Shown here: piece after piece, positions 765-61,785 of the stretch
Position numbering within the stretch: position 1 is the stretch's first letter
Layout: every line of letters begins with the position of its first letter
Assembly (NCBI GenBank): GCA_030603495.1
Contig: JAUVXR010000001.1
Span: 211,944 to 275,943 of the forward strand
Origin: a bacterium
GTDB lineage: Bacteria > Armatimonadota > Zipacnadia > Zipacnadales > Zipacnadaceae
DNA: 64,000 nucleotides
Direction of reading: 5' to 3'
Program-made: the position numbers and the translations under genes
The notes under the pieces: model-generated
Told to the model about the DNA's origin: nothing
Databases searched by the model: none
What the model saw: only the letters and a program-made list of their open reading frames with translations

Positions 765-3700
765 CAAAGCGCCGTCCACTCACAGCTTGCGCACGGCGCT
801 GCCTCTGAAGTTTCCGGCCACTGGCGACTGGATTCTAGTGCGACAAGCACAGCCAGGGCCCGGTCGAGCTGATCTGCCTGGCGGGCTAGCAGTGCTTCTT
901 CCAGCGGCACATCTTCGAGCCCGTCCCCCCTGACATGGACCAGCACCGGCTGCCAGTCGCGCCCAGGCTCCGACTCGGCGGCGAGCGCGTGCTGGTATAT
1001 GAACATCTGCAATGCATAGTCTTCTATCTCGGCCCCGCCCAGGTGCCGGTTAGTCTTAAAATCGGCAAACTGGCCCTGTTCTGCCAGGACCAGGTCCACC
1101 TTGCCACTGACAGCTACGGTTAGCTCACCAACTCGGCGGACCAGGTGCACTGGCCGTTCCACTTCGTGGCCAGGCACGACAAGTTGCGCCCACGGACTGG
1201 CCGAGAACGCTTCGATCAGCTTGCGCAACCTGTCTAGGTCATCTGCACCAGCCTCGGCCAGCGCGGTCTCTCCCAGCTCCCGGATGTAGTCGTCATTCGG
1301 CGGGCATCCCTGGCGGTAGTATGCCGCGACGTACTGGTGGAAGCAGGTGCCGATTGCTATCTCAGTCGTAGGACCAGTCTCTTCCAGGACCCGCTCCGGC
1401 CGCCACTTCTGGGTAATCCACCAGCGCCGCGGGCAGACCAAGACGTCCCGCAGTGCGCTGAAACTGGTATGTATAACCGCAGGCTGGTGGGGACGCTCGA
1501 CTCGCGGGGGCAGCAGTGTCGGCAGAAGTGGCGCGGCCTGAGCGGGGCCTGGTCCGAGGGTGACAAGCTTAGCTAGTTCATCACCTGATTCTTCAATCGC
1601 ACCGACCAGGTCCTCCCCCCAGGGAATCTGTGCATCTTTCTTTGTGCCGGCCGCGTAGGTTACACACAGTAGGTGCTTAGCCCGGGTCAGCGCGACGTAC
1701 CAGAGGCGCTCCTCCTCCTGCATTTCCTCCTCGCTGCCGCTAAACAGCTTCCGGACAATGGTTTTGGCCGAGGCCTCGCCATCCACATTGAGGCTCGCCA
1801 GCCCCCACGTATCGTCGTACGCGCAGCCGGGGGAAGGATTCCTTGTCGGGTCCCAGGCCATCACAAAGACAGCGGGGAAGCCCAGGCCCTTGGCGCAGTG
1901 GATGGTCATGACCTGCACAGCGTTCTGGGCGGGCAGGTCGGGAGCAGACAGTGCCAGGCCGCTTTCCGCTTCGTACAGATCTACTGCCTGCACCAGCGAG
2001 GCCAGGTCAGCCTGGCCGCCCTCGCCGCCCAGTTCCCCGATAATCGCCTCGAAGGTCGCCTTGACCGCTACGGCCGCTGCCCGCTCAGCCGGGGTCATTC
2101 CTGATTCAGAAATGCTTCCCAGCATCATCTCGAAGACAGTGCGGGCAGGATACATCAGACTGGCCCGCCGCAGCCGCTGAATCAAGCCGTACAGCTCCCG
2201 CAGTCGGTCAATCGGTAGCTCATCACGCTCTGCCGACGCACGCCAGTCATCGCGCCCTTCCGCCAACTCCGCCACAGCGCTGATGATAGCCCTATCCTTG
2301 GGCCGCCGGCGCATCTTGGTCGCGGCTTCTGCCTCCTCGTCTGATGCGCTACCTTGACTTGGTAGGAGCGACATTCCTGTCGCGATGCCCGGTTCCCGCC
2401 CACACGGTATACTGACGAGCAGAAACAACTGGCGGTCATTGAGACAGAGCGGTGGTCGGCTCAGCAGCCGCACAAGCGAGTTGTCATCGCAGGGATCATT
2501 GACCACCCGCATCAGCGCCAGCAGGTCGCAGGCCAGGGGATGATCGAAGAAGCCTATCCCGCCCTGAGCCTGGTAGGGAATCCTACGTTCTTCCAGAGCG
2601 CTCTTGAGATAGCGGAAACCGTGGCGCTTGCGCATCAGCACGCAGATATCGCCGTATTCAAACTGCCCCTGCTCGCCAACAAGGCACTGGATCTTCTCAG
2701 CGATATAGGCGGCCTCGTGGCGGTGGGTATGGCGCATTTCCTCACCCTCTTGGGCGGTGAACGGCGCGACCTTGATGATCGTGCCCGGCTCCGGCTTGGG
2801 ACTGACCAGCGCCGGGTCATCAGGTCGAGTGCGCAGGGCCGCCCGGTTGGCCACCTCGGTGAGCCGCTCATCCATACGATAGGTTGTGCTCAACGGCCGG
2901 CAAATCTCGCTAGCGCCCACATTGTCTCCCAGTTGGAACGGCAGCAGCTTGTCGAGGTTCCCCGGCTTCGCATCCCGCCAGCCGTAGATGGACTGCTTCT
3001 GGTCACCCACGACCATCAGGCGGTGGTAGCTGCTGATCTCCCGAAGCTTGCCGTCCCCTTGCACCTGCAGCCGCATTGGCTGCGCTAGCGCCTGGAGCAT
3101 CGCCATCTGGGCGGGGGAGGTGTCCTGGAACTCGTCCACCAGGATGTATTCGAACTTGCGGCTGTAGCGCTCGCGCAAATCACTCCGCTCAGTTAACAGC
3201 CTCTGTGCCATCATTATCTGGTCGTCGAAATCAATGCTGTCCGCCTCCGCCAACTGCTGCTGATAGATCTCGTAGGCCGCTGCTGCGGCAGCAATAATCG
3301 CGCGTTCGGTCTCTTGCGCACGCTCGAAGGACCCCGTCACATCAGGGCGCCGTTCGTACCTTACTAGATCACGGTAGTAGAGCTTCTTGAAGTCGTTGAC
3401 ATGGTTCCGCTTGGCCTCGGAGACTGAGCGGAGTTGGACACCAGGCAGGCCAGCACGGAACCGTTCCCCAGCCACATTGGGAATGTCATCGGTATCTGCC
3501 AGACCCCAAGCATCTTCTGGAGATAGCATAGCCTCCCAGAATCTATCACTCAACTCCTGGGCCTGCTGGCGGAACTCGTCCGGCTCCAGCCCATAACTCT
3601 TGGCATAGCTGATGAGTCTAACCAGCACGTCACGCAATTGGTCGGGCGTGGCCAAGCCCAGCTGGGCCAGCCGGTCGGTTCGCAGGGCCGTAAGTTGAGC

Positions 3701-7194: not shown

Positions 7195-7253
7195 ATTGGC
7201 GTGCCGTCACCTGCTATCAGTCGGTTGCTGATTACCACGACCGTCGCTGCGTG

Positions 7254-7284
7254 CCGGCTTCACTGCGTTCAACCGGCCCCTCCG
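7254..7284 (+). repeat. REP-like element, truncated copy A
   Basis: A 31-base copy of the first segment of the element seen at 7766 and 7875 (CCGGCTTCACTGCGTTCAAC, then CGGCCCCTCCG). It stops 2 bases short of the transposase stop codon at 7287, so the transposase gene is bracketed by same-orientation copies. Confidence 0.8.
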
Positions 7285-7286
7285 AA

Positions 7287-7751
7287 CTACGGCCAGCTTA
7301 CCAGTACTGACCACGGCCAATCTTCCCAACGTTGGCATAGACCCTCACGCACAGGATTGTCCAAGACATACTGTATCATAGCCCGCACGTTTTCCTCCTC
7401 ACGCGCATGCCTATCCCAATAACTACGCTGCCAGGCGAAATGAGCATGTCCCAAACGATGAGCTTGGCGGCTGATTTCACTTTTCAACGTGGCAATAAAC
7501 GGTTGAAAACCGCTATCTCTACTATCCATCGAGCACACAACGTGCATATGGTCTGGCATCACACAATACGCATGCAAGGAGAGCCTGAAACGAACGGCCC
7601 GCTCGTGCAGCACTCTTACGACCATTGGCGCCAGGTCAGGAACAAGTAAGCTCTGCCCCTTTTTCGCGGCAATAGTGACAAAGACTGGTGAGCGATCAGT
7701 CCTGTAAACTGCCTCAGGTAGTCTAAATGGATGTCTTCGGTTAGGTAGCAT
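7287..7751 (-). CDS. REP-associated tyrosine transposase (RAYT, IS200-like Y1 family)
   Basis: Single-strand DNA transposase of the Y1 HUH type. The HUH pair is in YCVMPDHMHVV, and the catalytic-helix region is followed by the RAYT-typical block YVLDNPVREGL and EDWPWS near the C-terminus. About 154 residues is the normal RAYT length. Starts are ambiguous: Met at 7751 opens MLPNRRHPF, Met at 7757 is possible, and the most upstream Met at 7784 would sit inside repeat copy B. The gene is flanked by three copies of a hairpin repeat in the same orientation, the arrangement of chromosomal RAYT/REP modules, in which the transposase is domesticated or mobilises the repeats. Confidence 0.85.
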   Translation of the reverse strand: MLPNRRHPFRLPEAVYRTDRSPVFVTIAAKKGQSLLVPDLAPMVVRVLHERAVRFRLSLHAYCVMPDHMHVVCSMDSRDSGFQPFIATLKSEISRQAHRLGHAHFAWQRSYWDRHAREEENVRAMIQYVLDNPVREGLCQRWEDWPWSVLVSWP

Positions 7752-7765
7752 GCACATGGCACAGA

Positions 7766-7854
7766 CCGGCTTCACTACGTTCAACCGGCGCCTCCCGGAG
7801 GGGCCTGTCGAGCAGACCGAGTAGCACGAGGTCTGCGAGGCTGGCCCGCCCTAC
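7766..7854 (+). repeat. REP-like element, copy B
   Basis: A full copy just upstream of the transposase start. It contains a C-rich small hairpin (CCTCCCGGAGG). It also has a perfect 7-bp stem, GCAGACC (7812-7818) with GGTCTGC (7830-7836), around an 11-base loop GAGTAGCACGA. It ends in CCCGCCCTAC, shared with copy C. Confidence 0.85.
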
Positions 7855-7874
7855 CACAAGCCCTAGAGCACGGG

Positions 7875-7950
7875 CCGGCTTCACTGCGTTCAACCGGCCC
7901 CTCCCGGAGGGGTCTGTCGAGTGGGCCGACTATCACGAGGCCCGCCCTAC
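7875..7950 (+). repeat. REP-like element, copy C
   Basis: A second full copy, 20 bases after copy B and in the same orientation. The first 47 bases are nearly identical to B. The distal stem is changed on both sides to GGGCC (7923-7927) and GGCCC (7939-7943), while the 11-base loop GACTATCACGA is retained. These are compensatory changes relative to copy B. Confidence 0.85.
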
Positions 7951-8064
7951 GTAACTTCTCTGCCCATCTCTCCACTCCTGCCCCGGGAGAGGTGAAGGAC
8001 TCGTGATCATTTCGGCGAAAATACGCTCACCCCCAGCAACCACTGTTGATCAGAGGGAGACACT

Positions 8065-61761: not shown

Positions 61762-61785
61762 GTAGGAGCGACATTCCTGCCGCGA
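61762..61785 (+). repeat. Interspersed short repeat, second copy
   Basis: Matches 2362-2385 at 23 of 24 positions (GTAGGAGCGACATTCCTG then CCGCGA). Confidence 0.75.

Follow-up and report, generated by a model that had tools for sequence, protein, structure and literature searches.

The question raised by this locus is how a putative transposase gene relates to the hairpin-forming repeats that surround it, and whether the gene and the repeats move together or separately. The locus lies in a 64,000-nucleotide stretch of DNA, referred to here as the window, from an assembly of 2.67 Mb in 62 contigs, which was coded G000 in our comparisons with related genomes.

The gene encodes a RAYT protein

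The gene was located as follows.

7287-7757, minus strand: RAYT/TnpAREP gene, 156 amino acids, assigned by family model, motifs, and fold

The protein scored 101 bits against NCBIfam model NF047646 (REP-associated tyrosine transposases; cut-off of 80) and 24.8 against the IS200 model, which has a cut-off of 55. The nearest solved structure by sequence was PDB 4er8 (E=3.9e-10), and the same entry was the top fold match (E=1.1e-9) of an AlphaFold model of the protein (pLDDT of 85.5). This entry is E. coli TnpAREP bound to REP (PDB 4ER8). The HUH motif was found at H70-x-H72, and the catalytic residue aligned as Y130. In the WQxxxWDxxxR motif, W109, Q110, D115, and R119 aligned with W94, Q95, E100, and R104 of the E. 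coli protein, which are guide-contact residues. Residues H70, H72, Y130, K92, and N134 were invariant in an alignment of 18 clade members. With a match to the curated model and an HUH-Y1 fold that has H-x-H and a single catalytic tyrosine, the gene belongs to the RAYT family, as a first-pass annotation of the window had proposed.

Among the genomes compared, the nearest relative with the same locus was a Candidatus Zipacnadia bacterium of the phylum Armatimonadota. In G001, the RAYT locus occupied the orthologous place: a 6.5-kb stretch that included both flanks was 76% identical at the DNA level. A dN/dS of 0.13 relative to the G001 orthologue indicated that the gene is under purifying selection. 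A search of genome contigs recovered just one close relative, and close RAYT gene copies numbered one per genome.

Two further RAYT genes, L021 and L022, were observed in the genome that contains the window (G000:C48:107661-108071 and G000:C1:10116-10547). They were flanked by GTGG/GTAG-type hairpins. This genome therefore appears to contain three or more RAYT/REP systems side by side.

Full-length repeats consist of two hairpins placed head to head

Partial repeats in the same orientation were found at 7250-7283, 7759-7836, and 7868-7945. The two 78-nt repeats were 85% identical, and the third copy was 97% identical over 34 nt. The three same-orientation copies that had been reported around the gene were confirmed as repeats, but each full copy turned out to be a composite of two different hairpins, REP-a on the minus strand and REP-b on the plus strand, which are positioned head to head. 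The hairpins and pairs are listed below.

7251-7283, minus strand: single REP-a, 33 nt, 4 nt past the RAYT stop codon; complete, 6 of 7 basal pairs; GGAG GGGCCGG T T GA AC GCA GT GA A G CCGGCAC
7763-7795, minus strand: REP-a of pair 1; outer stem decayed; ends just short of the RAYT start codon
7797-7847, plus strand: REP-b of pair 1; intact; GGAG GGGCC TGTCGA GCAGACC gagtagcacga GGTCTGC GAGGCT GGCCC
7763-7847, no strand assigned: REP pair 1, head to head, BIME/REPIN-like; heads 1 base apart
7872-7904, minus strand: REP-a of pair 2; consensus copy, intact
7906-7943, plus strand: REP-b of pair 2; lacks its outer 3' arm (13 nt deleted) and retains the distal stem GTGGGCC/GGCCCGC
7872-7950, no strand assigned: REP pair 2, head to head; in tandem with pair 1, 109 nt start to start

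Both REP pairs were upstream of the RAYT gene, and the lone REP-a was directly past its stop codon. The lone copy had been called truncated, which was incorrect because it is a complete REP-a. A full copy does adjoin the start of the gene, as had been stated, with the correction that copy 1 ends within a few nucleotides of the start codon. The repeats had also been described as having no GTAG or GGAG head. In fact, GGAG was present at the foot of every hairpin in the window. We also considered the minus-strand GTAG that reads as CTAC at 7851-7854 and at 7947-7950. It resembled a canonical head but was rejected, as it was outside the stems and missing in relatives.

The first-pass annotation had pointed to distal stems that differ on both sides between the two full copies (GCAGACC/GGTCTGC and GGGCC/GGCCC, with 11-nt loops) and had taken them as direct evidence for selection on the folded form. 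Both stems and loops were present. The second stem aligned best as GTGGGCC/GGCCCGC. In this alignment, two pairs differ on both sides (A-T to G-C), and a third pair goes from C-G to T-G. By themselves, the two window copies were weak evidence; the comparison was confounded because REP-b of copy 2 has the 13-nt deletion, but the remaining stem still pairs. The 13 nt were most simply lost via a deletion between two GGCCCGC repeats. Folding energies of the isolated hairpins were only modestly under those of shuffled sequences: in copy 2, REP-a had a z value of -2.5; in copy 1, REP-b had one of -1.4; and the decayed halves were at about 0. The bare pattern GGAGGGGCC...GGCCC was not evidence by itself because it matched the genome containing the window 6 times compared to 4 times for a reversed control, and GGAGGGGCC alone was not rare in the window (3 occurrences versus 1.5 expected).

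The stems of REP-a and REP-b covary among relatives

The REP-a consensus on the transposase strand is GGAG-GGGCCGG-T-T-GA-AC-GCA-GT-GA-A-G-CCGGCCC. It has a 7-bp basal stem (GGGCCGG/CCGGCCC), followed by a mismatch and one covarying pair. Above this pair come a tandem GA/GA mismatch and two further pairs, of which the outer covaries, and a GNA triloop caps the structure. The inner part of REP-a, previously taken as a 15-nt loop, contains an invariant tandem GA/GA, a T-A or C-G pair, an A-T or G-C pair, and a triloop that reads GCA, GAA, GTA, or GGA with few exceptions. REP-b, on the opposite strand, is built on a GGGCC/GGCCC base. Above the base are a mismatch, a short G-C/T-G/C-G segment, a tandem GA, and an apical stem that varies freely yet covaries.

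Covariation of the stems was supported by 18 to 20 sequences from related genomes. The REP-a set comprised 20 distinct sequences collected by similarity to the window and filtered on the basal stem and GA motifs, with the inner pairs left unfiltered. The REP-a structure paired in 97.5% of cells and contained 8 double-change cells versus 2.0 in shuffles (0/500), while slid-structure controls gave 2 or fewer. The double changes were at pairs 13-25 and 16-22, which are outside the filter. For REP-b-like 52-mers, there were 17 double-change cells versus 2.2 (0/500), with both-sided changes in five pairs, and the five sequences of the window-type REP-b yielded 4 versus 1.2 (3/500). Aligning copies and computing covariation was the check that the first-pass annotation had proposed, and with the sequences of relatives its claim of covarying stems was borne out. 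The simplest reading of these data is that the folded form is under selection, and folding of the single strand is supported because the stems covary.

Mini-hairpins resembling GCGAAGC or ACGCAGT, in which a GNA triloop sits beside the tandem GA mismatch, were observed in the REP-a apex (e.g., L040, L048, L139, and L148). We take the copies that read GCGAAGC to match a DNA mini-hairpin of unusual stability. To our knowledge, a GNA-triloop mini-hairpin next to a tandem GA has not been reported inside REPs. DNA mini-hairpins of extraordinary stability have been discussed (PMC10527192).

The GGAG head marks one clade of RAYT genes

The head of canonical REPs is GT[AG]G. What we found instead was GGAG in all window hairpins and near 28 RAYT genes of one clade, whatever the stem. 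The relatives L051 to L068 were flanked by GGAG hairpins, and nearly all clade relatives had GGAG elements on both sides of the RAYT gene. GGAG was kept with entirely different stems (GGAG GGGTCGGG.., GGAG GGGCTGCG.., GGAG CGGCCGGGC.., and GGAG GGGCGGGA..), so that the unpaired head was constant while stem and loop changed. Other RAYT genes in the order and phylum had GTAG or GTGG wherever a head could be called. One of them, L232, carried GTAG on a nearly identical basal stem (GTAG-GGGCCGATC..GATCGGCCC).

In a tree of 60 RAYTs, constructed without an E. coli sequence, the GGAG type formed one clade of 29 genes (28 with GGAG and 1 without a callable head; support of 94/92). Head type required 2 changes on the tree compared to 14.5 in shuffles. 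The GTRG labels of L021, L072, L074, and L075 were weak hairpin calls that were absent from a stricter scan, and the GGAG clade was independent of them. When in-clade RAYT genes that had not previously been looked at were held out, GGAG hairpins were found at 9 of 10; L248, as well as L231 in the tree, was called partly by eye, and the tenth gene, L247, was near a contig end.

A separate GGAG case, L258 in genome G180, was outside the main clade. This genome contained 81 copies of a GGAG-headed REP with paired stems that varied together, compared to 0 control matches (L258 and L263 to L292). Judging from the tree and these copies, G180 has a second, independent GGAG family.

These findings bear on the idea that the hairpins are RNA elements, such as terminators or stabilizers of mRNA ends, that serve host gene expression and are near a RAYT gene incidentally. 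The hairpins are placed at gene ends, and REPs are thought to be active at the RNA level too (PMC3733652). However, the region had 0 terminator-like sites, an Rfam match was absent, and an RNA role would leave aside the constancy of the unpaired GGAG on changing stems and loops, the agreement of head type with the RAYT tree, and the bracketing of the RAYT gene in nearly all clade relatives. We consider the RNA explanation very unlikely.

A YCGT motif is often located 5' of GGAG

Of 137 flank-collapsed copies, 45% had YCGT no more than 8 nt 5' of GGAG, compared to 5 to 8% in control positions further upstream, and the motif was seen across subfamilies with differing stems. The motif was not seen at GTAG (10 versus 6%) or GTGG (3 versus 8%) hairpins. 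In the GGAG family of G180, T or CT, rather than YCGT, preceded GGAG, and 93% of the collapsed flanks had a T at -1. YCGT is thus a feature of this clade, as neither the GTAG/GTGG hairpins nor the G180 family have it. The G180 flanks refuted the proposal that guide and target are coupled, such that GGAG implies a CGTT flank; a GGAG head does not by itself entail the motif, since G180 has T or CT in its place. YCGT may be either a preferred target or cleavage site or the outer part of the element.

In G011, G033, and G035, GGAG elements (e.g., L038, L066, and L068) were situated in stretches rich in TGYCGTT repeats, and the motif was sometimes present on the 3' side too. These stretches look as if they were sites of repeated insertion or excision.

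The repeats are dispersed and the RAYT locus probably stays in place

A covariance model was used to search for REP-a across 41 genomes of the order. REP-a was present in 17 of these, with 26 copies in G001, 36 in G011, 33 in G009, 28 in G036, and a maximum of 47 in G016. The further copies that the first-pass annotation expected therefore exist. The genome that contains the window has five copies of REP-a. Counts from fragmented assemblies are probably minima because several contigs end at copies. In the genomes searched, REPs were far more numerous than RAYT genes, and several genomes (G008, G013, and G016) had REP-a copies without a close RAYT gene. REP-a was found singly as well as paired. 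Inverted REPs as a repeated unit, the hallmark of BIMEs and REPINs, were found in both window pairs and in pairs from G001, G036, and G016. The general properties of REPs (a 20- to 60-nt hairpin with an invariant head and an imperfect stem in tens of copies) were seen in the relatives, with the copy number of five in the window's own genome as noted. As in other RAYT systems, REPs flank the gene and related REPs are dispersed elsewhere in the genome.

Two intergenic sites were occupied in G001 and empty in the congeners available for comparison: L126 (empty in G000, G005, and G006) and L133 (empty in G000, G004, and G006). The empty versions were much shorter. Both sites contain another, GTAG-headed repeat as well, and the intergenic DNA has diverged too far for a base-level reading of the insertion junctions. 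Because sites filled in one species are empty in relatives, it is probable that the repeats move while the RAYT gene stays put. Given the few copies in its genome and the presence of only one intact REP-a and one intact REP-b in the two window pairs, the system in this strain may be only weakly active or no longer active.

The same data weigh on whether the locus is an IS200/IS605-type insertion sequence, in which the transposase and its subterminal hairpins would transpose jointly. The protein shares the HUH-Y1 fold family with such elements, and hairpins are present on both sides of the gene. Nevertheless, its score passed the RAYT model and fell short of the IS200 model, each genome has a single close gene copy, RAYT genes are far fewer than REPs, and the G001 locus is in the same place with identity extending through both flanks. 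A mobile unit made of the gene and its end hairpins is not what these results describe, and the earlier claim that transposase and repeats behave as one unit was not upheld, since the RAYT locus has kept its place in G001 while REPs come and go elsewhere. We therefore see little chance that the locus is such an insertion sequence. That the repeats are passengers of a DDE-type miniature transposon, with the RAYT not being the mover, is also highly improbable: about ten GGAG pairs in G001 are inside a 230- to 260-nt repeat with TAGTRCTTAGTTGC.../...GCAACTAAGCACTA ends, but many copies (in the window, G011, G013, G016, and G036) have no such ends nearby.

The 230- to 260-nt repeat itself has inverted ends, a GGAG REP pair mid-unit, and two alternative right halves, and is MITE-like. 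Units were observed in G001 (L118, L120, L121, L123 to L125, L127, L129, L131, L132, and L134) and in the window's own genome (L005 on G000:C48 and a half copy, L003, on G000:C60). A GTAG-headed REP family (GTAGGAGCGACATTC...) was also observed, with two copies in the window (2362-2376 and 61762-61776, plus strand) and many in the genome and its relatives.

A well-supported REPtron with a GGAG head

Taken together, we think it highly likely that this region is a REPtron, in which a vertically inherited RAYT, a TnpAREP-type HUH single-strand nuclease, is located among its own GGAG-headed REPs, which it is predicted to bind, cut, and join, with the head-to-head hairpins as a BIME/REPIN-like mobile pair. 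In the proposed mechanism, the working unit would be the GGAG-headed hairpin, and two such hairpins placed head to head would form the mobile pair. The hairpin would fold while its strand is single-stranded, as on the lagging strand. The RAYT would bind the hairpin together with its basal GGAG guide and cut beside GGAG through Y130. It would then join the element to another site, in many cases directly 3' of a YCGT(T/C) motif. The family, the conserved contact residues, and the co-distribution of genes and heads point to recognition of GGAG plus hairpin. By analogy with E. coli TnpAREP, Y130 is predicted to make the cut and the element to be joined at a new site. The putative target role of YCGT reflects a correlation.

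The E. coli TnpAREP (RayT) REPtron with its y and z REPs (PDB 4ER8; PMC8266576) shares with the window system the HUH-Y1 fold, the WQ...E/D...R guide-contact residues, a tetranucleotide at the hairpin foot, an in-stem mismatch, and inverted REP pairs around the gene. The window system differs in having GGAG rather than GTAG, a tandem GA mismatch, and a GNA triloop, and in having no long C-terminal tail. The REPtron layout is likewise shared with the canonical GT[AG]G families, the TnpAREP subclasses (PMC6006769), and the RAYT-REP list of Nunvar 2010 (PMC2817692), as are one RAYT per REP type and several RAYT/REP systems per genome; in those families, the named heads are GTAG or GTGG (PMC6006769, PMC2817692). 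CGTC-tagged palindromic repeats (PMC3733652) are similar in that many copies here have CGT(C/T) just outside the palindrome. In the system described here, however, GGAG separates that motif, where present, from the stem, and the repeats have a dedicated RAYT, whereas the CGTC repeats are said to be without one (PMC3733652). IS200/IS605 elements such as IS608 and ISDra2 have the HUH-Y1 fold, a hairpin plus tetranucleotide guide, and a target motif 5' of the element, but the window system is without a mobile gene-bearing unit, and its protein is below the cut-off of the IS200 model.

The heads named in published surveys are GTAG, GTGG, and CGTC (PMC2817692, PMC3733652, PMC6006769), and we found no GGAG-headed REPs described in the open-access literature. 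The locus is best filed as a known RAYT/REP system with GGAG in place of GT[AG]G, because the head departs from GT[AG]G while the other testable properties of REPs were observed. The suggestion of a new REP class thus fails on its original ground, a missing head, and retains some merit in that the heads named in the open papers do not include GGAG. More tentatively, and leaning slightly against it ourselves, we raise the possibility that GGAG replaced GT[AG]G as the guide of the Zipacnadia RAYT clade, and that clade-specific residues adjacent to the guide-contact site (RS-W in WQRSYWD and RHPxRL near the N terminus) co-evolved with it, as did a target preference of the clade's own (YCGTTY); this would be a natural retargeting of a single-strand transposase, with G180 as a second, independent switch.

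The GGAG head is of interest because the open papers name no heads other than GT[AG]G and CGTC. The automatic search in PMC6006769 started from GTAG and GTGG and would have overlooked GGAG elements, and surveys restricted to these heads will have missed REP families. Moreover, the head is the part of the REP that characterized RAYT enzymes barely tolerate changing (PMC8266576): the E. coli enzyme accepts no substitution in GTAG, and with the enzyme from Stenotrophomonas, changing the second base of the head leaves hardly any cutting (PMC8266576). A natural clade with a second-position head change, together with an independent case, would provide enzymes and substrates for testing how RAYTs read their guide and choose their cut site.
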